A stretch of 64,000 nucleotides of DNA from Nocardioides piscis (GTDB taxonomy: Bacteria; Actinomycetota; Actinomycetes; Propionibacteriales; Nocardioidaceae), in the NCBI RefSeq assembly GCF_011300215.1, contig NZ_CP049866.1:2728001-2792000 (forward strand). Direction: 5' to 3'. Below are positions 17,067 through 34,335 of the stretch, piece by piece (positions within the stretch are counted from its first letter, which is position 1; every line of letters begins with the position of its first letter). The notes beneath the pieces were generated by a model that had not been told where the DNA came from, searched no databases, and saw only the letters and a program-made list of their open reading frames with translations. A program made the translations under genes and the position numbers.

Positions 17067-19780
17067 GTGCCCCGGACGAGTGCTGACCCCGACGCCACCC
17101 CTGCCCGTCTGCTGCTGCTGGACGGACACTCGCTGGCCTACCGTGCGTTCTTCGCGCTGCCGGTCGAGAACTTCTCCACAGCGACCGGCCAGCACACCAA
17201 CGCGGTCTATGGCTTCACCTCGATGCTCGTCAACGTGCTGCGCGACGAGCGGCCCACCCACGTGGCAGTGGCCTTCGACAAGTCGCGGCAGACGTTCCGG
17301 CTCGAGGAATACCCCGAATACAAGGCGAAGCGCAACAAGACCCCCGACGAGTTCCGCAGCCAGCTCCCACTGATCCAGCGAGTCCTCGACGCGCTGCACA
17401 TCATCCACATCGAGCTCGAGGGCTACGAGGCGGACGACATCATCGCCACGCTGTCCACCCAGGCGGTGGCCGAGGGCATGGACGTCCTGATCCTCACCGG
17501 CGACCGCGACTCGATCCAGCTCGTGACCGAGACCTCGACCGTGCTCTATCCCATGCGCGGCGTCAGCGACCTCGCCCGGCTCACGCCCGCGGCCGTCCAG
17601 GAGAAGTACGGCGTACCCCCGCACCGCTACCCCGAGCTGGCCGCGATCGTGGGGGAGACCTCGGACAACCTGCCTGGGGTGCCGGGTGTCGGCCAGGGCT
17701 ATGCGGCGAAGTGGATCAACCAGTTCGACGGGCTGGACAACGTCATCGCCCGTGCGGACGAGGTGACCGGCAAGAAGGGCGAGGCGCTCCGCGCCCATCT
17801 CGGTGACGTGATCCGCAACCGCCGCCTCAACGCGCTGGTGTGCGACCTCACCCTGCCGGTCCGTCCGGGCGAGCTGGCGCGCCAGGCCTGGGATCGCACG
17901 ACCGGGCTGGAGCTGCTCGACGAGCTGGAGTTCCGTGGCGAGCTGCGCACCAGACTGATGGACACCGTCGACCCTGGCTCCGAGGAGCAGGAGGTCGCGG
18001 CGGACTCGGGCTTCGAGCTCGAAGGTGTTCGGCTGGCCGACGGGCAGGTCGCGGCCTGGCTGTCCGAGAACAGTCCTGAGGGCGAGCGCCTCGGCCTGGC
18101 CGTCCAGGGTTCCTGGCGTGCGGGGACCGGCGAAGTCGCGTCGATGGCGCTGGCGACCGCGACCGGCGCAGCCGCCTGGATCGACGTCGCCGACATCTCT
18201 CCCACCGACGACGCCGCCCTGGCGTCGTGGCTGGCCGACCCGACCCGACCCAAGGTCGTCCACGATGCCAAGGGACCGATCCTGGCCCTTGCGGCCCGAG
18301 GGTGGGAGCTGAAGGGGCTGGCGGTCGACACCGCGCTCGCGGCCTATCTGGTGCAGCCCGACCAGCGCTCCTACGACCTGGCCGACCTGACCTTGCGCTA
18401 CCTCAAGCGCGAGCTGCGACAAGACACTGGCGACGCCGACCAGCTGAGCTTCGACACCCTGGACGACACCGGCACCAGCGACGTGGCGATGTTGACCGCC
18501 AAGGCCGTCCTGGACCTGGCGGCCGCCCTCGGCCAGACCGTCGAGGAGCACGGGGGACAGCGCTCCTGGGCGACGTGGAGCTGCCCCTGGTCGGCACGCT
18601 CGTCCGGATGGAGCAGACCGGCATCGCCATCGACGTCGACCACCTCGAGAGGCTCGAGTCGGAGTTCGGCGACCAGGTGAAGGCAGCCGCCGGCGACGCC
18701 TACGACGTGATCGGCAAGGAGATTAACCTCGGGTCGCCCAAGCAGCTCCAGGTGGTGCTCTTCGACGAGCTCGACATGCCGAAGACCAAACGGACCAAGA
18801 CCGGCTACACCACCGATGCCGATGCGCTCCAGTCCCTCTATGAGAAGACCGAGCACCCCTTCCTGCAGCACCTGCTGCGCCACCGCGACGTCATCCGGCT
18901 GAGGCAGACGGTGGAGGGGCTGCTCAAGACGGTCGCGACGGACGGGCGGATCCACACGACCTACAACCAGATCATCGCCGCCACCGGGCGCCTCTCCAGC
19001 ACCGACCCCAACCTCCAGAACATCCCGATCCGCACCGAGGCCGGTCGCCGGATCCGGGAGGGGTTCGTCGTGGGGGAGGGCTACGAGTCGCTGTTGACCG
19101 CGGACTACAGCCAGGTCGAGATGCGGATCATGGCGCACCTGTCCGAGGACGAGCTGCTCATCGAGGCATTCCGCTCGGGACAGGACTTCCACTCGATGAC
19201 CGCAGCGCGGGTCTTCGGCGTGGAGGCCGACGCGGTCTCGGTCGAGCAGCGGGCGAAGATCAAGGCGATGAACTACGGCCTGGCCTATGGTCTCTCGGCC
19301 TTCGGCCTCTCCCAGCAGCTCCGGATCGAGCCGGGGGAGGCGCGCGGGCTGATGGACGAATACTTCGAGACCTTCGGCGGGATCCGCAACTACCTCGGCG
19401 GACTCGTCGACGAGGCGCGCCGATCCGGCTTCACGGAGACGATCATGGGTCGACGTCGCTATCTGCCCGACCTGACGAGCGACAACCGCCAGCGCCGGGA
19501 GATGGCCGAGCGGATGGCTCTCAATGCGCCCATCCAGGGCTCGGCGGCCGACCTGATCAAGGTGGCGATGCTCGGGGTGGAGCGCGCTCTCGCTGAGCAG
19601 GGACTCTCCTCGCGCATGCTGCTCCAGGTCCATGACGAGCTCGTGTTCGAGGTGGCTCCGGGGGAGCGGGACGTGCTGAGCGATCTCGTCGGTGAGCAGA
19701 TGGGTCGAGCGGCTGACCTCGCGGTGCCGCTCGACGTCTCCATCGGGACCGGCCGCAGCTGGCACGAGGCCGCCCACTGA
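17067..19780 (+). CDS. polA: DNA polymerase I (apparent frameshift)
   Basis: PolA is the repair and Okazaki-fragment processing polymerase. The 5' part (17067 to about 18555) encodes the 5'-3' exonuclease (LLLLDGHSLAYRAFFALP, GDRDSIQLV) and a 3'-5' exonuclease-like domain without the DxE active-site residues, as in other actinobacteria. The 3' part, in another frame, encodes the polymerase: motif A DYSQVEMRIMAHLSEDELL, motif B RAKIKAMNYGLAYGLS, motif C LQVHDELVFE. Restoring one G in the run 18552-18556 joins them at EEHGGTALLGDVELP into about 904 residues, the normal length. As polA is normally essential or nearly so, a sequence error is much more likely than a real break. The start is leaderless GTG. 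Confidence 0.94.
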
Positions 19781-19802: not shown

Positions 19803-21056
19803 TCAGACGAGGGCTGAGGTCGAACGCTCGGCCACAGGTGCGTCGTCGCGCAGGAACCAGGCCGCCACCGCCAGCAGCACGGCGAGCAGGCAGAGATCGA
19901 CGATGACCACCGTGGTGGCCAGGCCCATGACCGAGTCGGTCGTCAGACCCACGCCCACCAACGTCGCGAGGGCCAACCACACCAGGTAGACCGAGCCGGT
20001 GCCCTGCCTGGCCAGGACTGAGTAGACGAGCAGCTGGATCATCGAGAGCAGGGTCCCGAGAACGGCGAAGATCCACAGCTTGGGCTCGACCTCGACATAT
20101 TCCGCGCCGCCCACGAAGTGGATGGCGATGCCGGACAAGAACCAGGACGCGGCCGTTCCGACCGCGCCCAGGGTCGCCACCAGGCCGAGGCTGACGGTCA
20201 GGGCCTTGCGCCGTTCACCCCCGGTGGCCATCGACGGGAAGGCGACGATGACCACGAACTGGGGCAGGAACAGCATCGCCTTGGTCAGGATCAGCCCTCC
20301 GGCGTAGAGCCCCGCATCGTGCTCGGACATGACGTTGCGCGCCAGGATGATGTCGACGCTGCTGAGGGCGAAGAAGGCGAAGAGTGCCTGACCGTTGAGG
20401 ACGCTCTCCTTGAACATGGACCTGCCCGAGTGGCGAGCTGACACCGGGCCGGCGAGGCGATCGTGTCGCAGGGCCCACAGGCCCACCAGGACCGGCGCCC
20501 AGAAGCTGACACCGACCCCGACCAGGCTCCAGAACTCCGTGGGCCGCCACGCGATGAATGCCCCGCCGATCAGCAGTCGGGGGACACCGGAGGCGACGTA
20601 GAGCATGCCCAACGGTGCCCATCGGCGCTCCCCCTGGAGGATCCCGGCCAGTCCGCCCGTGATGGTCATGGGCACTGCGCAGATCGCGATGATGACCGCG
20701 GCGCCGATCTGGTCCAGGTTGAGCAGGCGCTGGATGAGGGGGCTCAGCACCAGCATGACCAGGCCCAGCGACATGGCGGCCACAGAGGTCACTCGCAAGA
20801 TCGAACGCTGGATCTGGGCCACGTGGTCAGGTTCTGCCGAGATCCGGCGAGCAGCTGTCGCCTGGAGTCCGAGGGCCCCGACACTGATGACGAGCATGAC
20901 GTTGAGCGAGGCTGCCAGCGCACCGAAGCCCTCGGTGCCGAGCAGGGGCGAGGCGATGATGACGAAACCGTAGGTGGAGACGTTCATGACCGCCATCGAG
21001 ACCGCGATCCCGGAGCTGCTGCTCGCGAGGCGCGACACCTTCTCTTTCATCTGCAC
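19803..21056 (-). CDS. Oligosaccharide/polysaccharide flippase (MOP superfamily, Wzx-like)
   Basis: This polytopic inner-membrane protein of 417 residues has about 12-14 predicted helices and a polysaccharide-biosynthesis-protein layout. It probably flips a lipid-linked glycan across the membrane. It is divergent from the GT-C-like membrane gene and lies at the edge of the envelope glycan locus, which supports that role. The GTG at 21056 was chosen because TAGGCT ends 7 bases before it; the frame continues two codons to 21062, and an ATG lies at 21050. The C-terminus is a short hydrophilic tail. The transported lipid-linked sugar is unknown. Confidence 0.8.
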   Translation of the reverse strand: MQMKEKVSRLASSSSGIAVSMAVMNVSTYGFVIIASPLLGTEGFGALAASLNVMLVISVGALGLQATAARRISAEPDHVAQIQRSILRVTSVAAMSLGLVMLVLSPLIQRLLNLDQIGAAVIIAICAVPMTITGGLAGILQGERRWAPLGMLYVASGVPRLLIGGAFIAWRPTEFWSLVGVGVSFWAPVLVGLWALRHDRLAGPVSARHSGRSMFKESVLNGQALFAFFALSSVDIILARNVMSEHDAGLYAGGLILTKAMLFLPQFVVIVAFPSMATGGERRKALTVSLGLVATLGAVGTAASWFLSGIAIHFVGGAEYVEVEPKLWIFAVLGTLLSMIQLLVYSVLARQGTGSVYLVWLALATLVGVGLTTDSVMGLATTVVIVDLCLLAVLLAVAAWFLRDDAPVAERSTSALV

Positions 21057-21063
21057 TCGCACG

Positions 21064-21069
21064 AGCCTA
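21064..21069 (-). promoter_or_regulatory. -10 box of leaderless promoter for the flippase gene
   Basis: On the minus strand TAGGCT ends 7 bases before the GTG at 21056. It decides between three closely spaced in-frame starts. Confidence 0.55.
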
Positions 21070-21153
21070 GTTGCTCTGCTCCCACTACAGTCGGGTCCCT
21101 GCCAACCCCGCGCGCTGCGGACACCCGACGGCAGTCGAGGAGGAAACAGACCG

Positions 21154-22848
21154 TTGGCGAAAGCACTCGTATGGGCGCCAACGGTGTGGTCCCTCCTGCT
21201 GGGAATCTTGCTGCTGGGTGGCGCACTGGCACCTGGCTACGTGCTGAGCTACGACATGGTCTGGGTGCCGGACCTGGCCCTGACCGCGGAGGCCTGGGGG
21301 ACCGGCAGCGCCCTTCCCCGGGCAGTTCCGTCGGATGCGGTCGTCGCGGTGCTCGACGAGATCGTGCCCGGGGCGCTCCTCCAGAAGGTCGTGCTGCTCG
21401 GATCGTTGGTCGTGGCCGGAGCAGGGGCATCGGCGCTCGTCGACGGTGCGTCGGTGGCGGTACGGCTCGTCGCTGCCTCGCTGATGGTGTGGAACCCCTT
21501 CGTCGTCGAGCGTCTCGTCATCGGGCACTGGCCGGTGCTCCTGGGCTACGCGGTTCTGCCGTGGGTGCTCGTGGTGTGTCGACGGTGGAGCCCACAGAGT
21601 CGGGTCTGGCCACCGGGCAGCCTGCCTGTGCTGCTCGTCGGCGGATCGCTGAGCGCGAGCACCGGCGTCGCCACCGGGGTCGCCGCTCTGGCCGGAGGGT
21701 GGCGGCGCGGCCGGACTGGCAGCAACCTCGTGCTCGTCGCCATGGTCGTCGCGGCCAACTCACCGTGGCTGGTCGCTGGCCTGTTGCACTCCGCAGACGC
21801 CACGTCGGCGTCGCAGGCTGCTCGGCTGTTCGCGACGAGCGACGAGGGACTGCTACCCGGACCGTTGGCGGCCATCACGCTGGGCGGCATCTGGAACGCC
21901 GAGGTCGTGCCGGGCACCCGGCTTGGCTTCCTGGCCGTGGTGGGTCTGGTGCTGATGGCGGCGCTGGCCGCCTTCGGCTGGGCGGCGCATCGCCGTACGC
22001 CGATCAAGGGGGCCTCGTCCCTGGTCGTGTGCTGGGTCGTCGGGGTCGGGGTGGCTGTCGTGAGCTGGGCGGCACCTGACGCAATCGGCTGGCTGGCCGC
22101 GACCCTGCCGGGTGGGGGCCTCCTGCGGGACGGGGCCCGCCTCCTCGCCCTGGCAGCGCCGCTGACGGTCGTGCTCGTGGCCCGGGGCGCGGAGGCGTTG
22201 CTCGCCCTTGCACCGGACCGTGCGACCCGCGTGCTCGTTGCGGGGTTGTTGACTGCCACGCCGGTGGCGCTGCTGCCGGACGCTGCGCTCGGGTCTGCTG
22301 GCCGGCTGCAGGCCGTGCACTATCCCAGCGTGCTAAGCGACGTGCGCGCGGCAGTGCAGGCGGCGCCGGCCGGGGACGTGGTCGTCCTGCCGTTCGCCAG
22401 CTATCGGGCCCCGGAATGGAACGGGCGGCACAAGGTGCTCGACCCACTGCCCCGGTTCCTCGGGCGAGCCGCCGTGATCAACGACGTCCTCTACGTCGAC
22501 GGCATGCCGCTCCCCGGTGAGGACCCCCGCGCGGCCTCCGTCGCCGAGGCGCTCAGTCGGCCCACGGCCGGGTCCCGCGCGGCTGCCCTGGGCGAGCTGG
22601 GTGTCTCGGTCGTGGTCTCGGAGCGACTCCCTGGCCTGGCGTCTCCTGCGGTCGCGGGTCGGACGACCTTTGACCAAGGGGACTTCCTGGTCGTCGAGAT
22701 CGAGCAGGACGTCCGAGTCGACGCCGAGCCGTCGTCGTGGGTGGCGGCCATGGGCGTGGCCTGGACGGTGTGGCTGGCGCTGCTGGTCTCGGGAACATCA
22801 GCGCGAGCAGTCATGTTGTTCCGCAAGAACCGGAATACGGCTCAGTAA
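21154..22848 (+). CDS. GT-C-like polytopic membrane protein (Rv0226c-like)
   Basis: The 564-residue protein has about 11-13 hydrophobic segments in the first 400 residues and a soluble C-terminal domain ending in one last helix near 535-555. The first outer loop has acidic residues D34 and D40 (SYDMVWVPDLAL), similar in place to the loop of the AftD-like protein nearby (FDTKFDLVVDP), which suggests a polyprenyl-phosphate-sugar-using glycosyltransferase. Position and shape recall mycobacterial Rv0226c; this is from memory. TTG at 21154 follows GAGGAGGA by about 8 bases; the longer upstream frame overlaps the divergent flippase gene. The sugar and acceptor are unknown. Confidence 0.72.
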   Translation: MAKALVWAPTVWSLLLGILLLGGALAPGYVLSYDMVWVPDLALTAEAWGTGSALPRAVPSDAVVAVLDEIVPGALLQKVVLLGSLVVAGAGASALVDGASVAVRLVAASLMVWNPFVVERLVIGHWPVLLGYAVLPWVLVVCRRWSPQSRVWPPGSLPVLLVGGSLSASTGVATGVAALAGGWRRGRTGSNLVLVAMVVAANSPWLVAGLLHSADATSASQAARLFATSDEGLLPGPLAAITLGGIWNAEVVPGTRLGFLAVVGLVLMAALAAFGWAAHRRTPIKGASSLVVCWVVGVGVAVVSWAAPDAIGWLAATLPGGGLLRDGARLLALAAPLTVVLVARGAEALLALAPDRATRVLVAGLLTATPVALLPDAALGSAGRLQAVHYPSVLSDVRAAVQAAPAGDVVVLPFASYRAPEWNGRHKVLDPLPRFLGRAAVINDVLYVDGMPLPGEDPRAASVAEALSRPTAGSRAAALGELGVSVVVSERLPGLASPAVAGRTTFDQGDFLVVEIEQDVRVDAEPSSWVAAMGVAWTVWLALLVSGTSARAVMLFRKNRNTAQ

Positions 22849-22889
22849 CCGAAAGTGGCGAAGATTCACATTTCGCGAGCGGTCACTGT

Positions 22890-22895
22890 TAAGGT
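22890..22895 (+). promoter_or_regulatory. Possible -10 box for the DUF2613 gene
   Basis: TAAGGT lies 30 bases before the ATG at 22926, and GGGAGGG (22910-22916) lies between them as a ribosome binding site. No clear -35 element was seen. Confidence 0.4.
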
Positions 22896-22925
22896 TCGCG
22901 GCACACCTAGGGAGGGTCATTCCAC

Positions 22926-23084
22926 ATGAGCAACAACATTCTCGCGCCCGTTGCCAGCCTCGTTGCCGGCGGCGTCCTTGCGTCCGCGTCTGTCGTGGGC
23001 CTCGTGACCACTCTGACGTCTGCGCCGTCTGAGTCTCCGGCCAACGTCGAGTCCCCCGAGTACAACTACGGCACCACCGAGTAG
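22926..23084 (+). CDS. DUF2613-family small membrane/secreted protein
   Basis: This 52-residue protein starts with one hydrophobic Ala/Val/Gly-rich segment (residues about 7-30), followed by a short polar tail ending in PEYNYGTTE. It resembles the actinobacterial DUF2613 family, whose mycobacterial member (Rv0236A) lies next to aftD; here aftD is 2 kb downstream in the same locus. A strong GGGAGGG site 9 bases before the ATG supports translation. It has its own promoter and lies between two convergent blocks. It is probably exported or anchored by one helix; the function is unknown, perhaps as a partner of the envelope glycosyltransferases. Confidence 0.8.
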   Translation: MSNNILAPVASLVAGGVLASASVVGLVTTLTSAPSESPANVESPEYNYGTTE

Positions 23085-23098
23085 TTCGCGAGCGAGGG

Positions 23099-24256
23099 TC
23101 ACTCCTCGTCAGGATCCTGGCTGTCGATCCGCTCCTGCCGGAGCGCGCTCGCGATCACGTGGGCGAACGACTCCTGGGCGTGTTGCCAGGTGAACTGGTG
23201 GCTCATTGCCTCAGCCCCGTCGGCCAGGACCGATCGAAGCGCGTCGTCCTCCAGGAGCTGGCCGACCGCGTGGAAGAACTCCACCTCATCGTCGACGAGC
23301 AGACCGGATCGTCCGTGGGCGATCGACTCGCGGGTGCCGCCTGCGGACCTGTAGGCGATGGCCGGCGTCCGGTGCATCCCGGCCTCACCGATCACGAGGC
23401 CCCAGCCCTCCTTCAGTGACGGAAGGGCGAGCACCCAGGCCTGCTCATAGATCTCGTGCTTGCGTCGTTCGTCGACATGGCCCTCGAACACGACCGTCTC
23501 GCCTGCCTGGCGTGCGGCTGCGTAGGCATGCAGCTCGCCCTCCCACCAGCCGGAGCCGACGACGTGCAGCCGCAGGTCCGGGTGCTGTGCCCGGTGGACC
23601 AGTGCCGCGTCGATGGCATGCTCGACCTGCTTGTGCGGCACGAGCCGGCCGACGACGGCGATCATCGGGTGATCCGTCTTGCCGACCCCGACAGGGATGA
23701 CCGGGTCGGTGCCGTTGTGCACCACCGCGATGCGATCGTGGTGCACGCCGAGCTCGATCAGCTCGTCCCGTGTGGCGCGGGAGACTGCGACGTACTGGCA
23801 CGAGCGGTAGAGCCGAGGAGCCAGGGTGCGCTCCACCCACCAGCCGAACCGGCCAGTGGCGCCCGGATAGACGACCGGCCACTGCTCACGATGCACGTGG
23901 TGGACGAGGACCACGACGGGCTTGCGCGTCACGGCCCTGGTGAAGAAGGGCAGACCATTCTGTACGTCGACGACGATGTCGACGTCGCCGAGATCTCCGC
24001 GCAGCAAGGCCTTCATGCCTTCGGCGTAGACCGTCAGCTTGGAGCCGCGGCGCACCAGCCGAACACCGTTGATGGTCTCGTCAGGTGGGGCCGCAGCGTG
24101 CGCCGCGCAGAGGATGGTGACCTTCGCGCCACGTTGGACGAGACCCTCTGCCATCTTCTCCAGATAGCGCTCTGCACCGCCGCCCTCGGGGTTGTGGGTG
24201 TCACGCCAGCTGAAGAATGCGACGTGTCGGCCGGAGATCTCACTATGGTCTGACAT
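23099..24256 (-). CDS. GT4-family glycosyltransferase (Rv0225-like)
   Basis: This cytoplasmic, GT-B fold retaining glycosyltransferase has 385 residues. The N-terminal domain shows the donor-independent loop HNPEGGGAERYLEKMAEG near residue 21-38. The C-terminal domain has VVGRLVPHKQVEHAIDAA and the nucleotide-sugar motif SLKEGWGLVIGEAG with the E-x7-E pattern near residue 282-296. It transfers a sugar from a nucleotide donor to an unknown acceptor, probably a lipid-linked intermediate of this locus. A TAACCT box ends 9 bases before the ATG at 24256, slightly further than in the other leaderless genes. It is divergent from the methyltransferase gene, as in the mycobacterial Rv0224c-Rv0225 pair. 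Confidence 0.88.
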   Translation of the reverse strand: MSDHSEISGRHVAFFSWRDTHNPEGGGAERYLEKMAEGLVQRGAKVTILCAAHAAAPPDETINGVRLVRRGSKLTVYAEGMKALLRGDLGDVDIVVDVQNGLPFFTRAVTRKPVVVLVHHVHREQWPVVYPGATGRFGWWVERTLAPRLYRSCQYVAVSRATRDELIELGVHHDRIAVVHNGTDPVIPVGVGKTDHPMIAVVGRLVPHKQVEHAIDAALVHRAQHPDLRLHVVGSGWWEGELHAYAAARQAGETVVFEGHVDERRKHEIYEQAWVLALPSLKEGWGLVIGEAGMHRTPAIAYRSAGGTRESIAHGRSGLLVDDEVEFFHAVGQLLEDDALRSVLADGAEAMSHQFTWQHAQESFAHVIASALRQERIDSQDPDEE

Positions 24257-24282
24257 GGCCTGCAGAGGTTACTACCGCAGGG

Positions 24283-24288
24283 TAGGGT
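24283..24288 (+). promoter_or_regulatory. -10 box of leaderless promoter for the methyltransferase-aftD operon
   Basis: TAGGGT ends 6 bases before the GTG at 24295, in the divergent intergenic region shared with the GT4 gene. Confidence 0.6.
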
Positions 24289-24294
24289 TGTCTT

Positions 24295-25088
24295 GTGCCG
24301 CGCCCGCCCGGAGCTGTTTCGGCCCGCCGGGCCCTACGAGGGCGGCGGGCCGCCCTGCGTTCCTCCCCGGACAGCACGTGGGCACCCACCCTGAGGCGGT
24401 CGATCCGGCTCCTCCGCGAGTTCCGGCACGAGTCCGCGGACCCCGACAGGTTCTACGGGGCGCTCGCCGAGGACTCGGTGCAGATGCTGCGCCAGTACCA
24501 CTCCCTCGAGGGGGCGACCCTGCTCGATGTCGGTGGCGGCCCGGACTACTTCCGCGACGGGTTCGTCGATGCGGGCGCTAACTACTACTCCGTCGACGTC
24601 GAGGCGCACGAGCTCGACGAGTCGTCGAACCACCGGGTGGTGGGCAGTGGGATGCAGCTGCCCTTCCGTTCCGGCTCCGTCGACATCGCCTACTCCTCCA
24701 ACGTCCTCGAGCACGTCTGTGCTCCGTGGGTGATGGCCGAGGAGATGCTGCGCGTCCTCAAGCCCGGCGGCCTGGCGTTCATCAGCTACACGGTCTGGTA
24801 CGGCCCCTGGGGCGGACACGAGACAGCGCCCTGGCACTACCTCGGCGGCATGAGGGCCCGGCGGCGCTACCGCAGGAAATTGGGGGTCGAGCCCAAGAAC
24901 CGGTTCGGGGAGAGCCTGTTCGGGGTCACGGTGCGCGACGGTGCGCGCTGGGCCAGGCGTCAGCAGGTGGCCGAGGTGGTGGACCTGACCGCGAGGTACA
25001 ACCCCGCTGGTCCCAGTTCCTCCTGCGCATCCCGATCCTCAGGGAGGTGACGACGTGGAACTTCGTGATCGTGCTCAAGAAGCGCTGA
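24295..25088 (+). CDS. SAM-dependent methyltransferase (Rv0224c-like, apparent frameshift)
   Basis: This class I methyltransferase carries motif I LLDVGGGPDYFRD near residue 80 and the post-motif SSNVLEHVCAPW. The stretch YGPWGGHETAPWHYLGG is typical of the Rv0224c group. The first frame drifts into nonsense at about 25003. Restoring one C in the run 25002-25005 gives TARYNPRWSQFLLRIPILRE and a natural C-terminus at 25088, about 264 residues. The 3' end overlaps the start of the AftD-like gene by 34 bases, so the two are coupled. The methyl acceptor is unknown; a sugar residue or lipid carrier of the envelope glycan is the likely guess. Confidence 0.85.
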
Positions 25089-28000
25089 AGTTCCGGCTCC
25101 GGCTCCTGACTGGTGCACTCGTCCTCATCGCCCTGGCCTTCTCCCAGGCCCCGGGCTTCCTCAGCTTCGACACCAAGTTCGACCTCGTCGTCGACCCGTG
25201 GCACTACCTCGAACGCGGAGTCCACCTCTGGGACTCCAACGGGGCCATCGGCCAGCTGCAGAACCAGGCATACGGCTACCTGTGGCCGATGGGTCCGTTC
25301 TTCGGTGTCGGAATCATCGCCGGCATCCCGGCCTGGGCCGTCCAGAGACTGTTCATGGCGCTGGTCATGGTCGTGGCGTTCACCGGCACCGCACAGGTCG
25401 CCCGGGCCCTGGGCGTGCGGTCCCACCTCGCCTGCCTGCTGGCGGGTTTCGCCTACGCGTTGTCGCCGCGCATGTTGACGACCGTGGGCACGATCTCGAT
25501 CGAGAGCTGGCCCTCGGCTCTCGCGCCGTGGGTGCTCCTGCCCCTGATCATCGGGTCCACCAGGGGCTCTCCGCGCCGAGCGGCAGCCCTGTCCGCCCTG
25601 GCGGTGGCCATGGTCGGAGGCGTCAACGCGACCGCCAGCTTCGGCGTCATCCCGATCGCCGCCATCTGGCTGCTCACCCGGAGCCGGGGCCCACGCAAGC
25701 GGAGCATGATGATCTGGTGGCCGATCTTCACCGCCCTCGGCACCCTGTGGTGGCTCATCCCGTTGTTCCTGCTCGGGACCTACAGCCCGCCCTTCCTGGA
25801 CTTCATCGAGTCGGCTTCGGTCACGACCAACCCCACGACGCTCTTCGACTCGCTGCGCGGCACCTCCCACTGGGTGCCCTACATCGACAACCGCTGGCGG
25901 GCGGGCAGCGCCCTGATCACCCAGGCCCCGCTGGTGCTCAACAGTGGCGTGGTCCTGATGCTGGGTCTGCTGGGCCTGATGAGCCGGCGCAACGAGCACC
26001 GGGCCTTTCTGGCGATCAGCCTCCTCTTCGGGCTGGCCCTGGTCGGCATGGGCCACCTTGGTGCGGTCCAGGGTGTCTTCGCGCCGTTCCTCAACGATGC
26101 CCTCGACGGCGCCCTGGCCGCCGCCCGCAACGTGCACAAGTTCGACCCCATCGTGCGACTGCCGCTGGTCCTGGGACTGGCCCTGCTCCTCGAGTCGCTG
26201 CGTGCGCCCGAGCTGATGACCCCCAACCGGCGAGGTGTGCAGCGCTCGGTCGCCTTCATGTCGATGGCGTGGCTGGGTGTCATCGCCGTCGTCGGCGCAG
26301 CGATGCCGGGCATCCAGGGCCGGATGGCCCCCAACGGTCTGGTGGCCGAGGTCCCCGACTACTGGGTGGAGGCGAGCAGCTGGCTCGACGCGCAGGGGAC
26401 CGAGGGCGCCGTCCTGATGACGCCCGGCATCGGGGTGGCGCAGTTCGTCTGGGGGTCCACGAACGACGAGCCCCTGGAGTTCCTGGTCGAGGAGGGACGC
26501 TTCGGCGTTCGCTCCAACATCCCCTTCGTCCCGCCCGGCAACATCCGGGCCCTCGATGCCATCGAGGAGCGGCTCACGCAGGGCCGGGCCTCGGCAGGGC
26601 TGGCTCCCTTCCTCGCGCGCTCGGGCGTCCAATATCTCGTGGTGCGCAACGACGTGATCAAGGCCCCGGACATCCCCGACACGGTGTTGCTGCACCAGGC
26701 ACTCGACGGTTCGCCGGGTCTGAGTCGGCTGACGAGCTTCGGTCCGGATCTGGGCGGCGGCGCCTATCTGGGTGAGGGCGAGGAACGCAACGTGATCAAC
26801 GGTGGTTGGCAGACCAACTATCGCGCTATCGAGATCTATGAGGTTGCCGGTGGGGGCCCCGGAGCCGTCGCCTCCGAGGAGCTGCCCCTGGTCGTCGGTG
26901 GTCCGGAGTCGCTGCTCGACCTCGCCGATGCAGACGTCCTGGACAGCGAGCCGACCGTCCTCGCCTCCGACGCGGACCCGGACGCTGAGCCCATGGGGCC
27001 GATGATCCTGACGGACGGCTATCGCGACCGAGAACGGTTCTTCGGCCAGCTCCATGACGGCTACTCCGCGACGACGTTGCCCGGCGAGGCCCGGCACAGT
27101 GCACATCCGTCGAAGGACTTCTATCTCAACAAGGGCGATGACCGGTGGCGCACGACCGCCAGGCTCACCGGCGCCGAGTCGGTCGTGGCCTCCAGCTCCA
27201 TGGCGGACGGGAGTGCCAAGGGCGGCGCCCGACCGGGCAAGTCGGCCTTCGCGGCCATCGACGGCGACCCCTCGACCGAATGGGTGTCGAACGTCTCCTC
27301 ATATGACCGACCGACCTGGGAGATCCGCTTCGGGCGCACCCGCCAGCCCCGCACGCTGCAGCTCACAGGCGGAGTCAGCGCGCCGCAGACCCAGACGTTG
27401 CGGGTGGTGACCGAGAACGGGCGCAGTGAGGACATCGACCTTGCTCCCGCGACCACGGCCCGCGTCGAGCTTCCCGAGGGTGGGACCCGCTGGCTACGCG
27501 TCGAGACGACCGGCCAGGCAGCGACCGTGCATGCAGCACTGAGTGAGGTCGAGATCGCCGGGGTCGAGGTCGACAAGGTCCTCGTGCTGCCCACGACGCC
27601 CGAGGAGTGGGGCACCCCGGATGCGATCTTGCTGACCGCCGCCCAGGACGGGCGCACGGGATGCGTCCGGGTGGACGGGTCCGTGCGCTGCCTCCAGGGT
27701 CGCAACGTGGAAGGCGAGGAGGACGGAGGGTTCAGCCGCGAGCTCGAGCTGACCGTGCCCCGGGACTACCTCCCCGAGCTCTGGGTGCGGCCACGATCGG
27801 GGGCAGCCGTGGAGGAGGCACTGCTTGCCGACCTGCCCGTGAGCGTGACCTCGTCGAGCCAGGCGGTCCCGGACGTGCGCGCCTCGGCCCTCGCGGCGCT
27901 GGACGGCGACCCGGGCACCGCTTGGATGGCACACTCCGGAGACTTCAGGCCGACCCTGCGCACCAGGTGGGTGGGACCGACCCGGGTCGACGGCCTCACC

Positions 28001-29159
28001 ATCAGGCTCGACCCCAACGTGGCCGGCCGGACCCCGAAGAAGGTCCGCGTGACGCATCGCGACGGGTCGACCGACGTGGAGCTCGACACCCACGGCTGGG
28101 GTCGCATCCCCGCCGTACGGACCGACTTCCTCGACATCGAGGTGCTCGAGACCGACTTCGCCAGCAGCATCGGTTTCGACCAGTCGAGGATCCCCCTGGC
28201 GACGGCCATCAGCGAGGTGCGGATCGACGGTGCGCCGTTCGAGTCCCTGGCGCCCAGCACGCAGGAGCGCGTGCTGCCGTGCGGCTCGGGCCCCGACGTG
28301 ACGGTGAACGGAGAGGTCGTCCGCACCCAGGTCGACACGTCCTCGGCAGAGATCTTCTCGGGGAAGAGATGCGCGCCACGCTCTGTGACGTCGATTCGAT
28401 CGACCTCGGCTCCGGGGTCAACCGGATCGCCGTGGGCAGCAGCGACGTCTTCAGTGCGACCCGGCTCGCGCTCGAGAGCGCTGACTTCGACACCGCGCTG
28501 GCCCGCGGTGTGCGGTGGGAGAGCCACGACGCTGACTCCCGCAGGGCGACCCCGCCCCGGGCTCGGCGGTGCTCGCCTTCCGGGAGAACGCCAACGTCGG
28601 CTGGGAGGCAACCCAGGACGGCAGGTCGCTGACCGCCGTGCGCGTGGACGGGTGGCAGCAGGGCTGGCTGCTCGGGCCCGACTCGGCCGGGCCCGTGGTC
28701 GAGACCTATGCGCCGGAGAAGCTCTATCGGTGGGGCCTGCTCCTTGGGCTGGTCACTGCCCTGGTGTTGCTCGCGCTCGTGCTGTGGTGGCAGCGCCGAC
28801 GTCCCCAGGACGAGCCGCCGCCTGTCAGCACGGCCGTCATGCGTCCCTGGGTGTGGACGGGATTCGCGGTGGTGGCGATGGCCGTCATCGCCGGTTGGTC
28901 GGGCCTGGTGGTGATGGCCGTGACGTTCGCGGTCGGCATCCCGCTCGGCCGACGGGTGCCCGAGCTGCGAGAACCCCTGCTCGCCGCATGCGTCGTGGCT
29001 GCGTCGTTCTTCTACGCCGTCCACCCGTGGGGAGACGGTTGGGCCGGCGCGAGCGCGTGGCCTCAGCTCTTGTGTGTCGCGGCCCTGACCGGGGTGGTCC
29101 TCGCCGTGGCCGAGCCGACGTGGCGCAGACGCATCGACGGCCGCTCGACGAGGCGATAG
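25055..29159 (+). CDS. aftD: AftD-like alpha-(1->3)-arabinofuranosyltransferase (two apparent frameshifts)
   Basis: This giant GT-C membrane glycosyltransferase is about 1368 residues if two single-base gaps are restored, close to mycobacterial AftD (about 1400). The N-terminal half has many membrane helices and an acidic first loop (D39, D43, D47 in FDTKFDLVVDP). Two discoidin/F5-8C-like carbohydrate-binding modules lie near residues 700-840 (AIDGDPSTEW) and 925-1050 (ALDGDPGTAW), and membrane helices follow near the end. In mycobacteria AftD adds arabinofuranose from decaprenyl-phosphoarabinose to arabinan. The frame breaks at the G run 28360-28363 and near the C runs at 28550-28558; both are single losses. 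GTG 25055 overlaps the methyltransferase end. The 3' end overlaps the convergent acyltransferase by 97 bases. Donor and acceptor here are inferred only. Confidence 0.85.
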
Positions 29160-30310
29160 ATCAGCTCGGCCAGCGGCAGGGTGATCAACAACGTCAGGCC
29201 GAGGACCGGCCACAGGTGGTTGCCTTCGAACTTCACGTAGGGCGTCGCCCAGTAGACGAAGTGGAGCACCACGAGGTGGATGCAGAAGACGCCGAAGGAG
29301 ATGTGCCCGAGACGCCGGGCCAGCCGGGTTGACATGACCCGCGCGTAGGTCGAGTCCGGATCGCTGAAGACCCCGGTGAGGACCAGCAGCACGCCGATGA
29401 GTGCGTAGAGGGTCTGCCGGGTGAGCGCCTCACCGGGAGTCGAGGGGTCGAACAGCGCCGGTCCGCTGAGGGGGGTCGCAGCGACCACCAGCAGGCTGAG
29501 CGCGATCGCCCAGCACACGCCCGGCTGTCGCCCGAGAGTGATCAGCCGGTGGAGCCACGGACCGGGCCCCCTCGTCGTGGTGATGACGTGGGCCCAGGCA
29601 AGCGCGATCCCACCGGCGAACCACATGAGGTAGTTGGGAAGCCACTGCCCGGGGAGTCCTGTCTCCAGGTCGTAGGCCCACTTGTTGAGCAGCAGCGTCC
29701 AGGCCACGTTCAGCGCCACCAGCGCCAGGACCATGCCCATGACTCGACGGGTCGTCGGCCGCAGTCGCCCCTTGGCGCCGGCCAGCCACATCAGCAGCGG
29801 AAGCACGATGTAGAAGGACACCTCGGTCGCCAGGCTCCACATCTGTGTCTGGCCGAAGCGGAGCGAGTCACTGACGTAGATGTCGCCCATCCACAGCACG
29901 GTCACCCAGTCGTGCAGCGTCGGCTCGTCATCGACCCGCACGAACACCATCGCGAGCACGACCGCGATGAGGTAGGGCGGATAGATGCGCAGGAAGCGCT
30001 TCCAGTAGTAGCGCCGGACCCCGTCATGGGGCCGGCCGCGGACCGCGCTGGCGAGATATTGGTGGGAGAGCAGGAACCCGGAGAGGACGAAGAAGATCGC
30101 GACGCCGACGTCCAGACGGGGGAGCATCAGCCCGACGATGCCGTGGCGGAAGTAGTCACCGGTCCAGAAGGTCACGTGAGTCAGCACCACGGCCAGGGCG
30201 CCGACCGCGCGCAGCGGGTCGAGGACGGCGAAGACCGGCGTGGCGCCGCCGCTGGGGTCGTGCAGGAGATGGTCGACCTGTTGCGCCGAGTCGGCCTCGT
30301 GGATCGTCAT
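29063..30310 (-). CDS. Membrane acyltransferase, acyltransferase-3 (OafA/YrhL) family
   Basis: The 415-residue protein has about ten membrane helices and O-acylates a sugar or glycolipid using a cytoplasmic acyl donor. Family features are LDPLRAVGALAVVLTHVTFW near residue 30 with the catalytic-type His, FFVLSGFLLSHQYL, and RFLRIYPPYLIAVVL. The ATG at 30310 overlaps the stop of the upstream membrane gene by 4 bases (ATGA), so the two form an operon. Mycobacterial Rv0228 has the same family and context. The last 32 codons overlap the 3' end of the convergent AftD-like gene; with the frameshift problems nearby the true stop is slightly uncertain. Confidence 0.88.
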   Translation of the reverse strand: MTIHEADSAQQVDHLLHDPSGGATPVFAVLDPLRAVGALAVVLTHVTFWTGDYFRHGIVGLMLPRLDVGVAIFFVLSGFLLSHQYLASAVRGRPHDGVRRYYWKRFLRIYPPYLIAVVLAMVFVRVDDEPTLHDWVTVLWMGDIYVSDSLRFGQTQMWSLATEVSFYIVLPLLMWLAGAKGRLRPTTRRVMGMVLALVALNVAWTLLLNKWAYDLETGLPGQWLPNYLMWFAGGIALAWAHVITTTRGPGPWLHRLITLGRQPGVCWAIALSLLVVAATPLSGPALFDPSTPGEALTRQTLYALIGVLLVLTGVFSDPDSTYARVMSTRLARRLGHISFGVFCIHLVVLHFVYWATPYVKFEGNHLWPVLGLTLLITLPLAELIYRLVERPSMRLRHVGSATARTTPVRAATHKS

Positions 30311-32145
30311 GTCAGCGGTGCTCCGGGGGAGATCGTGCCTACGTCGATCTTGTCGACGCAAACGATAAGCGATGGATCGATGCTCGTGAGGTCGACTGAG
30401 TCGAACTGCCCGTCGGCCCGGACGAAGAGCTGGTGGAGGCCGGCGCGCAGGGTCGTGCGTACGGCGTCGCCGTCCTCCACCTCGATGACGACCGGTGTCT
30501 CCTTGGGGGCGAGGTAGCTGATCCGGAGCCACCAGTCGAAGTCGACCGTGGGGCGGACCAGCGGGATCGTCTTCTCGCCCTCGGGGATGCGCCAGCCGCA
30601 CCCGTCGACCGGACCGGGCTCGCTCGACGTCGCCACCTCCAGGGCGGCATGGGTGAGGGCTCCCGAGTCGTCGATCACGGCCAGGTCGTGGGACGCCTCC
30701 GGGAAGACCGAGTCAGGCGAGAGCAGCCCGACCAGGCGGGGGACGCGCTGCTCCGACCACAGGTTGGGACCGACGACCGTCGGCGGCAGGCCGGCATCGG
30801 CCAGGGCCAGCGGCCCCGTGGTCGCGAACTCCTTGCTGAGTCGCGACACGTAGTCGCGCGGGTCGGTGAATCCGTGCCAGACAAGGGCGAACTGGGTGGC
30901 CGACCAGAGCCCTGACATCGCGATGGCGGTGGTGATGGCGATCGGGACCTGGACGGGGAACCTCGGCGTGAACATGGGGGACTCACGCGGCACGCTGCTC
31001 CCCGCGGCTCCATCGACCTCGAGGTAGGCCAGTCCGAGGGCCAGCATCGCGAGCGCCGCCGCCTCGGTGAGGTAGCGGTATTCCGTGCCGGCGATGTCGC
31101 CGACGAAGGGCGCACGGCTGGACCACAGCAGCAGCAACAAGGTGACGAGGCCGAAGAGCAGCAGCGCCCAGGCGCGCCCGGTGCGACGTCGGGTGAGGAA
31201 GGCGTGGGTGACCACCCCGGCGATCACGAGCCACGACAGACGGGTCGCCCACTCCGGCGGGTCCGCGAAGGCAGCGGGCGGGGTGGGGGAGTACCAGTCC
31301 CACGGCCCGCCGGTGATGCCAGTGGCGAAGCCCGTTCCGAGCATCGTGTCGGTCAGCGGGCCGAGGAGGCCCCAGTCCGTGTCGAGCCTGTTCTGCTCGA
31401 TGTAGAGGGCGTAGTAGGCGATGGTGCCCAGGCCCACGGCGCCCGCGACGATGATGATCAGCCAGCGCCGACGGACGAGCGAGACCAGGCGCTGCTTCGC
31501 GGAACCCGTTTCGAACCAGCCGAACGAGATCGCTGCCAGCACGGGGGGAATCATCAGTCCGCGGATGTCGGCAGCGAGCGCGAACACGACAGCGGCCAGG
31601 GTCAGGAGCACCCAGCGCGTGCGGCCGGTCCGCTCGGCCAGCACCCAGCAGGCCACGGCGCACAGGAGCCCGATCTGCTGAGGGATCTGGTTGAGGGCCA
31701 CGGCCCACCACACGCTCGCGGGCATGGTGATGGCTGAGAACAGGAAGATCATCAGCGGCGGCACGATGCCCCAGCGCATGCCGAAGAGGGTCCTGAGCAT
31801 CCAGAACGCGGCCAGTCCGACGACTCCCTGCAACATCGCGGTGACGGCTGCCGTGGCTGGCCAGTTGAACAGGCCGCCGGCCATCGACAGGTCCGCGAGG
31901 AGGCGTCCCAGCGGCATCAGGTGCCCGGTGTGAGGCTCCATGACGTAGTCGAGGGTGAGCCCGTTCGCCCTGCTGTCGCGCAGGAACTCGAAGTCGTCCT
32001 CCTGGAACCAAGCCCCGAACATCGCCCAGGCGCGGAAGGCGGTGTGCGCGAGGACCAGGAGCAAGCAGGTGACCAGGACCCACGGAGGGCCCGCCTGCGA
32101 CCGGTGGGACCTTGTCCCCTGAGCATGGGGCGGTGGCTGTGACAC
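30307..32145 (-). CDS. GT-C-like polytopic membrane protein with ED-D first loop
   Basis: The 612-residue protein has a hydrophobic segment near residue 22-40, then an outer loop with QEDDFEFLRDSR (E49, D50, D51), about ten further helices, and a C-terminal beta-rich outer domain of about 200 residues. An acidic ED-D motif in the first loop is a hallmark of GT-C glycosyltransferases that use polyprenyl-phosphate sugars, and HTGHLMPLGRLL follows as in related putative transferases. It starts an operon with the acyltransferase. The GTG at 32145 has a GATAGT box ending 7 bases upstream. No specific family name could be given with confidence. Confidence 0.7.
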   Translation of the reverse strand: MSQPPPHAQGTRSHRSQAGPPWVLVTCLLLVLAHTAFRAWAMFGAWFQEDDFEFLRDSRANGLTLDYVMEPHTGHLMPLGRLLADLSMAGGLFNWPATAAVTAMLQGVVGLAAFWMLRTLFGMRWGIVPPLMIFLFSAITMPASVWWAVALNQIPQQIGLLCAVACWVLAERTGRTRWVLLTLAAVVFALAADIRGLMIPPVLAAISFGWFETGSAKQRLVSLVRRRWLIIIVAGAVGLGTIAYYALYIEQNRLDTDWGLLGPLTDTMLGTGFATGITGGPWDWYSPTPPAAFADPPEWATRLSWLVIAGVVTHAFLTRRRTGRAWALLLFGLVTLLLLLWSSRAPFVGDIAGTEYRYLTEAAALAMLALGLAYLEVDGAAGSSVPRESPMFTPRFPVQVPIAITTAIAMSGLWSATQFALVWHGFTDPRDYVSRLSKEFATTGPLALADAGLPPTVVGPNLWSEQRVPRLVGLLSPDSVFPEASHDLAVIDDSGALTHAALEVATSSEPGPVDGCGWRIPEGEKTIPLVRPTVDFDWWLRISYLAPKETPVVIEVEDGDAVRTTLRAGLHQLFVRADGQFDSVDLTSIDPSLIVCVDKIDVGTISPGAPLT

Positions 32146-32152
32146 AGGGGGG

Positions 32153-32158
32153 ACTATC
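32153..32158 (-). promoter_or_regulatory. Possible -10 box of leaderless promoter for the GT-C-like/acyltransferase operon
   Basis: On the minus strand GATAGT ends 7 bases before the GTG at 32145. It departs from the TAGNNT form, so it is less certain. Confidence 0.4.
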
Positions 32159-32288
32159 GCACAGCGACCCAGCCGGATCCGGGGGGTTGACTGCCGCCCG
32201 TCTCAAGGCCGCGCACACGCCTCTTGCGTGCGACGCTGACTTTGTACCAATCTTCGCGCTTGCACCACACGCGCCGTCTACTTGCTGG

Positions 32289-32294
32289 TAACCT
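32289..32294 (+). promoter_or_regulatory. Possible -10 box for the DUF3068 gene
   Basis: TAACCT lies 35 bases upstream of the GTG at 32329, giving a leader of roughly 28 bases that contains the ribosome binding site GGGAGGG. Confidence 0.4.
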
Positions 32295-32328
32295 GCGGCG
32301 ACTTATTCATTCCTGGGAGGGACCTGTA

Positions 32329-33222
32329 GTGCGCAAAATCATTGGCTGGCTGCTGCTCGGGCTGGGTGCCTTCTTGTTGGTGACCGCTCTGTTGGCCACG
32401 CTGTGGGTCCCGGCGCAGCTCGAGCGGACCCCGCTGGACGTCGACACCAAGACCTACCTCAGCGGGACTGCGGAGAAGTACAACCCGACGCTGGGTGAGA
32501 CCGAGGACCTCGACGTCAAGGCCACCAGCACCACCCAGGCCGACGCCGACAGCTCCGACGACGACGTGATCGTCTGGGTGAACACCACCTGCCTGGTGAT
32601 CGACGAGGGTGACGTGCCCGAGTGCGTCGAGGCCGACGAGCCCCTGAAGCGCCTGGTGAGCGTCACGACCGACGTGTTCGCGACGGGTCGCAACGACGCA
32701 CTGGCCGTGAACGGCAAGTACCGCCACCCCGGCGCCGAGGAGAAGGAGGGACTCGTCAACAAGTTCCCCTTCGACACCGAGAAGAAGGACTACCCCTTCT
32801 GGGACGGCATGCTCGGTGCGCCGGCGACGGCTGAATACGTCGGCACCGAGACCCTCGACGGTCTGGAGACCTACAAGTTCCACATCCTCCTCGAGGAGGA
32901 GCCGGTCGACGAGATCATCGCCGGGACCCCGGGCGTCTACAGCCAGGACAAGTACATCTGGGTCGAGCCCCGGACCGGGGGCATCGTCAACCAGGAGCAG
33001 CACGAGATCCGCGAGCTCGAGGACGGCATGCTCCTCCTCGACCTCAACCTGGCCTTCACCGACGAGCAGGTCGAGAAGTCCGTCGCGGAGGCGAAGGACA
33101 ACAAGTCGCAGCTCAACCTCGTGACCAAGACGGTGCCGGTGGTCGCGTTCGTCGTGGGCCTCCTGTCGGTGCTGGTCGGAGCGTTCCTCGTGTTCGCAGG
33201 GCGCAAGCGCTCCGGGGCCTGA
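32329..33222 (+). CDS. DUF3068 membrane protein (Rv0227c-like)
   Basis: The 297-residue protein has an N-terminal membrane helix (residues 4-26), a large extracytoplasmic domain rich in Asp/Glu, and a C-terminal helix (about 268-290) with a short basic tail. This hairpin layout and motifs such as NTTCLVIDEGDVPECVE fit the actinobacterial DUF3068 family (sometimes labelled porin PorA family protein); mycobacterial Rv0227c, beside Rv0224c-Rv0228, belongs to it. GTG at 32329 with GGGAGGG 7 bases before it was preferred to the far upstream frame start. The function is unknown; context suggests a role with the surface glycan. A strong terminator follows. Confidence 0.85.
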   Translation: MRKIIGWLLLGLGAFLLVTALLATLWVPAQLERTPLDVDTKTYLSGTAEKYNPTLGETEDLDVKATSTTQADADSSDDDVIVWVNTTCLVIDEGDVPECVEADEPLKRLVSVTTDVFATGRNDALAVNGKYRHPGAEEKEGLVNKFPFDTEKKDYPFWDGMLGAPATAEYVGTETLDGLETYKFHILLEEEPVDEIIAGTPGVYSQDKYIWVEPRTGGIVNQEQHEIRELEDGMLLLDLNLAFTDEQVEKSVAEAKDNKSQLNLVTKTVPVVAFVVGLLSVLVGAFLVFAGRKRSGA

Positions 33223-33293: not shown

Positions 33294-34106
33294 TCAACTG
33301 AGGACGCAGACGAAGATGGCCGTCCCGGGAGTGAGCAGCCCCCGGACCCGCGACCAGCCTCCCCACACCCGGTCGAGGTCGTCGGGCCACTCGGGCTCGA
33401 CGACGTCGACGAGCACGAAGCCCTGGCCCGACAGCAGGCGCACCCAGTCGCCGATGGTGCGGTGGTGCTCGACGTACGACACCCGGCCCGACTCGTCGTC
33501 GATCTCGACATAGGGAGTGCGGTCCCAGTAGGACTGGGTGGCGGTCAGGCCGGCGACACCGGGGTCGTCGGGGAACATCCAGCGCGTCGGGTGGGTGATC
33601 GAGAAGGCGAACCGTCCGCCGCGCCGCATCACCCGAGCGGTCTCGGCAAGTGCCTGCTCGATGTCGGCGACGAACTGCAGGGCCCCGAAGGAGCAGAAGA
33701 CGACGTCGAAGGAGCTCTCGGCGAACGGCAGCTGGGTCGCGGTCGCCCGGACCGACGGCACGGCGGTGCCTGTCAGCTCGTCGATGCGACGGCCGTGCTG
33801 GAGCTGACGGTGCGACAGGTCGAGGCCGAACGCCCGACCGCCCTGCCGACGCACCCAGCGTGAGCACTGACCGGCCCCGCTGCCCACTTCGAGGACGGTG
33901 CGACCAGCGACCGGTCCGAGGATGCCGAGCTGCTCCTCGGTCTGTCCCTCCGGCCCCCACACGAAGCCGACGTCGCCGAGGAACTCACCGTGGGTTGCTT
34001 GGTATTCGTCGGCGTAGCGGTCCCAGTCGGGGCCGTTGGCGCGTCGCGACTCGGCCTCGTCGACGCGGCGACGTTCGACCCGCACCGACTGCGGCAGGTG
34101 ATCCAC
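33294..34106 (-). CDS. SAM-dependent methyltransferase (type 11)
   Basis: This class I methyltransferase has 270 residues. Motif I is VLEVGSGAGQCSRWVRRQGG (about residue 70), the acidic strand end is GLDLSHRQL, and FDVVFCSFGALQFV and ARVMRRGGRFAFSITHPTRW complete the fold. The GTG start is set by TAGCCT ending 6 bases upstream. It is divergent from rpsA and separated from the envelope locus by a terminator, so no shared pathway can be claimed. The substrate is unknown, small molecule or ubiquinone-type by general similarity only. Confidence 0.88.
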   Translation of the reverse strand: MDHLPQSVRVERRRVDEAESRRANGPDWDRYADEYQATHGEFLGDVGFVWGPEGQTEEQLGILGPVAGRTVLEVGSGAGQCSRWVRRQGGRAFGLDLSHRQLQHGRRIDELTGTAVPSVRATATQLPFAESSFDVVFCSFGALQFVADIEQALAETARVMRRGGRFAFSITHPTRWMFPDDPGVAGLTATQSYWDRTPYVEIDDESGRVSYVEHHRTIGDWVRLLSGQGFVLVDVVEPEWPDDLDRVWGGWSRVRGLLTPGTAIFVCVLS

Positions 34107-34152: not shown

Positions 34153-34183
34153 TTGGACGGCCGATGCTCGTCGCACGTAGGCT
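34153..34183 (+). promoter_or_regulatory. Candidate rpsA promoter
   Basis: TTGGAC (34153-34158) and TAGGCT (34178-34183) are 19 bases apart. A start near 34190 would give a leader of about 145 bases ahead of rpsA, long for this window. Confidence 0.5.
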
Positions 34184-34318
34184 TCACGATGCGCCAGGCC
34201 TCTGCCCGAGTTCCACCGGAGCGGACGCGTGCTCGCTACGCCCAGGCTGACGACCAGATTCATGTCAGTGTCTGTAGTGAAACAGGGCTTGGTGTGTCCG
34301 TACGACTTCTATCCATCC

Positions 34319-34335
34319 AAGGAATCACTTCCCTT
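34319..34335 (+). promoter_or_regulatory. Hairpin covering the rpsA ribosome binding site
   Basis: AAGGAA (34319-34324) can pair with TTCCCTT (34329-34335) across a TCAC loop with one bulge, directly before the ATG at 34336. The only purine-rich Shine-Dalgarno candidate is within the stem, which would suit translational self-control by S1 protein. Confidence 0.45.

Follow-up and report, generated by a model that had tools for sequence, protein, structure and literature searches.

A conserved actinobacterial envelope locus around an AftD-family glycosyltransferase in a Nocardioides genome without UbiA and DprE1, two of the known arabinose-donor genes

Work on AftD, PgfA and MmpA treats them as components of the mycobacterial wall. 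AftD takes decaprenylphosphoryl-arabinose, the product of UbiA, DprE1 and DprE2, as its known donor. In Corynebacterium glutamicum, AftD is NCgl2757, in a region described as conserved in all Corynebacteriales (PMC6034362), and NCgl2759 (tmaT), NCgl2760 (lmcA), NCgl2761 (mmpA) and NCgl2764 (mtrP) are described as one locus, in which mutation of tmaT, mmpA or mtrP impairs trehalose corynomycolate transport and lets precursors accumulate, and lmcA serves LM/LAM (PMC8698533). A second report states that the lmcA mutant has lost LAM and has truncated LM, that M. smegmatis PgfA binds TMM, and that DUF3068 had earlier been described as restricted to actinobacteria (PMC9678360). For M. tuberculosis, these sources give Rv0226c as reported to be essential and Rv0227c as predicted to be so (PMC8698533, PMC9678360). 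The 2021 paper on MmpA describes no homology beyond corynebacteria and mycobacteria and reads the AftD-like part of the protein as a membrane anchor.

We analysed a 64,000-nucleotide stretch of the Nocardioides piscis genome (hereafter the window), which is included in a host assembly of 3.78 Mb in a single contig. Family searches of the window place an envelope locus at 19803-33222, flanked by polA (17067..19780, + strand) and rpsA (34153..35832, +, with four S1 domains). In order, the locus encodes the hydrophobic protein Flip (19803..21062, -), placed by phmmer; MmpA of the Rv0226c/NCgl2761 family (21166..22848, +, with a start that we picked in a listed ORF starting at 20974); a small DUF2613-like protein of 52 aa (22926..23084, +); a GT4 glycosyltransferase (23099..24256, -; PF00534/PF13439); an MtrP-like SAM methyltransferase (24295..25050, +; PF08241); an AftD-family GT-C glycosyltransferase with CBM domains (25055..29332, +); an acyltransferase-3 in the TmaT/Rv0228 position (29063..30310, -; PF01757, 92 bits), with a probable start in a listed ORF that runs to 30601; GTCx (30307..32145, -); and PgfA/LmcA (32326..33222, +), whose start we also picked, the listed ORF starting at 32224. 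A second methyltransferase, MT2 (33294..34106, -; PF08241), follows PgfA after about 70 bases, and many Nocardioides loci have this gene next to PgfA. Close named homologues come nearly all from Nocardioides. The acyltransferase and the methyltransferase were assigned by position and broad family alone, and we take the GT4 gene to be the counterpart of Rv0225 and the DUF2613 gene that of Rv0236A.

Some of these reading frames are interrupted. Compared with the proteins of G267, a congener discussed below, the aftD frame is broken near 28.37 and 28.54 kb, in its C-terminal part, and the methyltransferase frame near 25.0 kb; polA, compared with the protein of G217, is split near 18.57 kb into two overlapping frames. 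A glpD-like gene in another, 37-kb stretch of the genome also seems, by eye, to be shifted at its start. Indel errors in the assembly, rather than decay, are the likely cause of these defects, and six-frame searches tolerate such errors.

The AftD protein is assigned to its family by the GT-C_AftD domain (PF11847, 760 bits against a cut-off of 26) together with CBM modules (CBM_AftD, PF24607, 65 bits), and aligns to M. abscessus AftD (6W98) over residues 14-1104 with 559 bits. Like the M. abscessus protein it keeps the DTKxDL and RNxHK motifs, and the core polar residues of mycobacterial AftD, for which a catalytic role is putative, are present as D39, K41, D43, W59, N70, Q71, E252, R358, N359, K362 and R368. 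It is about 40% identical to the N-domains from the family coded f4 in our sample, which we call Mycobacteriaceae-like as the sole carrier of Pks13 and of high-scoring Emb. Its host lacks UbiA and DprE1. When the 77 polar residues invariant across the 9 f4 AftDs were taken as reference, 37 were kept at 90% or more in 35 rows without donor genes, compared with 27 in the 17 donor-bearing rows outside f4 (the comparison covers 26 rows with donor genes and 35 without, with G090 put as donor-bearing at a DprE1 score of 484 bits against a cut-off of 500). Most of the listed donor-less congener rows have long, open AftD frames.

MmpA passes its curated NCBIfam threshold (NF053599, 381 bits against 210, for the ORF 20974-22848), and its predicted model has an AftD-like GT-C fold, with acidic residues of the first loop invariant in the alignment. 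The alignments of both MmpA and GTCx show invariant acidic residues close to the N-terminus, and both proteins are predicted by their models to be GT-C-fold proteins. GTCx matched no Pfam or NCBIfam family; its model combines the GT-C fold with a C-terminal CBM35-like domain, and its nearest relatives are from Nocardioides. Flip, a flippase in the sequence-only reading described below and for us a putative one, had no match among Pfam families, NCBIfam families or PDB sequences, and phmmer finds its relatives adjoining mmpA in Rhodococcus and several Mycobacteriaceae-like loci. PgfA (ORF 32224-33222) scores 186 bits with NF053601 (cut-off 160), 210 bits with PF11271/DUF3068 and 61 bits against LmcA (PDB 7N3V); the window protein may have either of the two roles published for PgfA/LmcA. 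A sequence-only reading of this DNA had proposed an AftD-centred gene set in this interval, akin to the mycobacterial locus and including two GT-C-like proteins and a DUF2613 protein. The Pfam and NCBIfam families bear out the set, whose genes fall in the AftD, DUF3068/PgfA and Rv0226c (MmpA) groups, and the models of MmpA and GTCx agree with the predicted fold; the DUF2613 gene is present as a small ORF, but its score with PF11021 (19.9 bits) is slightly below the cut-off of 22.1.

The likeness to C. glutamicum NCgl2757 and NCgl2759-2764 and to M. tuberculosis Rv0224c-Rv0228/Rv0236c lies in the clustering of AftD, acyltransferase-3, DUF3068, MmpA, GT4 and methyltransferase genes. The tmaT-locus grouping of acyltransferase-3, MmpA, MtrP and PgfA/LmcA is likewise found, with the acyltransferase and methyltransferase as candidate members; that these two and MmpA would match the C. 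glutamicum tmaT/mtrP/mmpA trehalose-lipid export set by position or family had not been foreseen in the sequence-only reading. Unlike either described locus, that of the window sits between polA and rpsA, adds GTCx with its CBM35-like domain and the second methyltransferase, and belongs to a host without Pks13, UbiA, DprE1 or AftB matches of family standing. In contrast to the published MmpA (NCgl2761/Rv0226c), the MmpA of the window is encoded in a Pks13-less genome, and against the 2021 account of this protein stand both its modelled GT-C fold and its occurrence over cut-off in 37 class genomes outside the Pks13-bearing f4 family.

Searches of the host genome gave no match for UbiA at E 0.001, no match for AftB, and six weak matches for DprE1 (best 4e-10), and the best Pks13 match (NF040607, E 1.6e-31) resembles those of other Pks13-less genomes and is below the cut-off of 2100 bits. 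Judged by these searches, the host probably lacks the decaprenylphosphoryl-arabinose pathway for its AftD (UbiA and DprE1) and mycolate synthesis (Pks13), and the mycolyl-arabinogalactan wall set appears to be represented by a divergent Emb-family protein (77 bits) without AftB and Pks13. Both donor-gene models match in the congener G054 (608 and 259 bits); as they match in congeners, the models work in this genus. These results accord with the expectation of the sequence-only reading that the host would be free of mycolates and arabinogalactan, in that there is no Pks13 over cut-off and no canonical arabinan donor route. The search that it proposed for emb, aftB, ubiA and dprE1 returned one Emb-family protein and none of the other three over cut-off. 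Its interpretation is borne out in part, and the methylated and acylated, polyprenyl-linked glycan that it proposed is a hypothetical product. It had also named findings that would count against it: the missing arabinose-donor pathway, one half of the first, is what we observe, and genes outside the AftD and DUF3068 groups, the other, is not. The Emb-family protein (G000:C1:1684751-1687456, - strand, in L030/L031) is a divergent protein of 901 aa (PF04602, 75-77 bits), seen in the host but in none of its 6 congeners in the class sample. Its gene adjoins an ArnC/DPM-like GT2 that is in one frame with a PaaK-like ligase. We rejected it as the mark of a second arabinan cluster; the neighbours identified are a methyltransferase and the GT2 with the PaaK-like ligase (by search) and groEL (by eye).

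Across 128 genomes of the class, AftD is over cut-off in 60, PgfA in 57, MmpA in 46, UbiA in 40, DprE1 in 38, Emb and Pks13 in 10 each and AftB in 4; when any match is counted, PgfA rises to 58, MmpA to 49 and AftB to 13. The Emb carriers are 9 f4 genomes and the host, and Pks13 is over cut-off in 9 f4 genomes and in G016, the last an artefact of joined PKS pieces. Reading Pks13-like matches as mycolates was rejected, 126 of the 128 genomes giving some match. Among the 60 AftD genomes, 25 have DprE1 over cut-off, G090 has UbiA alone, and 34, the host included, have neither. DprE1 over cut-off without AftD occurs in 13 of the 128 (G116, G086, G096, G106 and G076 among them), so the route to the arabinose donor may supply further systems as well.

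A locus peculiar to this strain can be rejected on the class count and on a scan of named genomes, which returned at least 582 AftD stretches; its presence in many families of the class had not been foreseen. The best 80 of these stretches, examined for neighbours, include Nocardioides, Marmoricola, Aeromicrobium, Mumia, Micromonospora, Actinoplanes, Blastococcus, Goekera, Pseudonocardia, Jiangella, Nocardiopsis, Nonomuraea, Rhodococcus and others, and most of these genera are, to our knowledge, without mycolates. Within 10 kb of AftD in these 80 loci, several of them on contigs that end early, we found GT4 in 76, MmpA in 68, the acyltransferase in 67, PgfA in 66, Flip in 62 and MtrP in 52. 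All six partners are present in 31 loci, five in 27, four in 11, two or three in 10 and none in 1, some loci being cut by contig ends. In Rhodococcus the gene order is rearranged.

In the genus, AftD is present in 117 of 147 genomes, of which 93 have neither donor gene, 5 have UbiA without DprE1, and 19 have both, with DprE1 under cut-off in four of these (G132, G228 and G244 at 418-440 bits, and a fragment of 239 bits in G265) and UbiA under cut-off in three. G162 has DprE1 and UbiA without AftD. DprE1 and AftD share one 19-kb stretch in 14 of the 19 genomes with both, a linkage count that comes from related genomes and does not represent independent events; the UbiA-DprE1-DprE2 trio lies about Flip and MmpA in 9 of the 14 and between later genes in others, and in N. 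guangzhouensis (L109) it is inside the locus. In G054, G194, G216, G244 and G265, DprE1 is apart from AftD or on another contig. Four of the 5 UbiA-only genomes have UbiA within about 2.1 kb of AftD, the distance in G196 being about 10 kb, and Mumia (L063) has UbiA within the locus and DprE1 not within it; UbiA near AftD without DprE1 points to a ribose donor. Such nearness of UbiA (decaprenyl-phosphate phosphoribosyltransferase) to AftD is seen in L237, L243, L257 and L258, from genomes without DprE1 over cut-off. The donor appears to be a variable of the locus, with arabinose supply genes in the same locus in some congeners.

On a quick class tree of 61 AftD rows the donor label requires 8 changes, against 19.9 in shuffles, and on the genus tree (65 rows, a non-random sample) the label for both genes requires 5 against 14.4. 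Its rows were drawn from 29 loci with the top-scoring AftDs, 6 loci of class-sample genomes, 20 stretches of genomes with DprE1, 20 hand-chosen ones and the window; 9 AftD frames of 8 genomes were dropped as low-scoring or short (G109, G244, G160, G150, G177, G054, G200, G232), three of them donor-bearing, 3 more were skipped where the genome was already represented, and three of the five genomes with UbiA alone were retrieved for it. One starred clade of 16 holds 13 of the 16 donor-bearing rows, and the clade of the window (support 89, not starred) is donor-less in 34 of 37. The nearest row to the window is nevertheless the donor-bearing G267, 81% identical in the N-domain, in which DprE1-DprE2 separate MT2 from PgfA and UbiA follows AftD at a distance of about 2 kb, and so close kin of the window AftD probably do use arabinose. 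G267 and the window pair among mostly donor-less rows, and judged from this tree a gain of donor genes in G267 would be as simple as a loss in the lineage of the window.

This pairing bears on two of the alternatives. The host AftD could be a true arabinofuranosyltransferase in ordinary arabinan work, with a donor that is taken up or made by a pathway escaping the family models; the single-stretch linkage of DprE1 and AftD in 14 genus genomes, G267 included, and the Emb-family protein beside the ArnC/DPM-like GT2 speak for this account, but it has to contend with the UbiA, DprE1 and AftB results in the host, obtained with donor-gene models that are functional in the genus, and we consider it unlikely. 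A recent loss of the decaprenylphosphoryl-arabinose genes, leaving AftD idle or decaying, seems to us improbable. The broken aftD and methyltransferase frames and the donor genes of G267 would suit it, but the break in polA as well argues for indel errors, 93 of the 117 AftD congeners do without both donor genes with mostly open frames, the AftD core residues are kept in donor-less rows, and gain in G267 accounts for the tree equally simply.

A third alternative concerns the product rather than the donor. A role in lipid export would fit about as well as one in glycan assembly, because C. glutamicum tmaT, mmpA and mtrP export trehalose lipid and lmcA serves LM/LAM. In its explicit form, in which TmaT-, MmpA-, MtrP- and PgfA-like proteins acylate a non-mycolate glycolipid and move it across the membrane and AftD is a separate neighbour, it draws on the precursor accumulation in the C. 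glutamicum mutants (PMC8698533) and on TMM binding by PgfA (PMC9678360). We nevertheless regard it as rather unlikely, as against it stand the AftD-like fold and invariant first-loop acidic residues of MmpA, the presence of GT4 and GTCx in the locus, and a host without Pks13.

Our preferred reading, held with slightly better than even confidence, is that of a conserved actinobacterial envelope locus that combines a GT4, export, three GT-Cs, modification and PgfA, and in which the host AftD is supplied with a donor other than arabinofuranose. With two of the known arabinose-donor genes missing from the genome, the locus may assemble a different surface sugar. The observed gene content, synteny, modelled folds and conserved AftD core would suit a pathway whose substrates and step order we infer as follows. 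The cytoplasmic GT4 would start or extend a lipid-linked sugar, which the membrane protein Flip may pass outward; on the outer face of the membrane, MmpA, AftD and GTCx would transfer further sugars from polyprenyl-phosphate carriers; the acyltransferase and methyltransferase would modify the product; and PgfA/LmcA would bind lipid and hand it on. The sugar that the host AftD takes from its polyprenyl-phosphate donor would then not be arabinofuranose. Among such donors, polyprenyl-phosphomannose is common in Actinobacteria, and for this reason it is our guess, a speculative one, at the single most likely donor.

Presence of the locus in many Pks13-less genomes and, in most of the genus, without UbiA and DprE1, suggests an older job that is specific neither to mycolates nor to arabinan. 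A bolder generalisation, which we put forward tentatively and think more doubtful than probable, is that AftD, in many Actinomycetes (60 of the 128 sampled), is a periplasmic enzyme that transfers polyprenyl-phosphosugars and is not tied to arabinose, its donor being set by genes gained and lost at the locus: arabinofuranose with the UbiA-DprE1-DprE2 trio, ribofuranose with UbiA near AftD in the absence of DprE1 (the 5 UbiA-only genus genomes, and the Mumia L063 locus), and an undescribed sugar where, as in the host, neither is found; and that MmpA is a second glycosyltransferase and not a transporter. Nocardioides, with and without donor genes at one site, offers a test bed for what AftD uses as donor and what MmpA does.

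Some features around the locus deserve mention in their own right. Near it, the window encodes a large protein (35912-39661, -) with GSDH, PKD, CBM6 and 3-keto-disaccharide hydrolase domains. In G267 (L231:5109-9573), three genes that by eye resemble those for MoxR, DUF58 and transglutaminase-like proteins lie between PgfA and DprE2. In other genomes of the genus (L125, L126, L129, L246 and L248-L252) the polA-Flip site holds quite another AftD cassette, whose MmpA and GT4 are weakly similar to those of the window, which gives this site the look of an envelope locus open to exchange.
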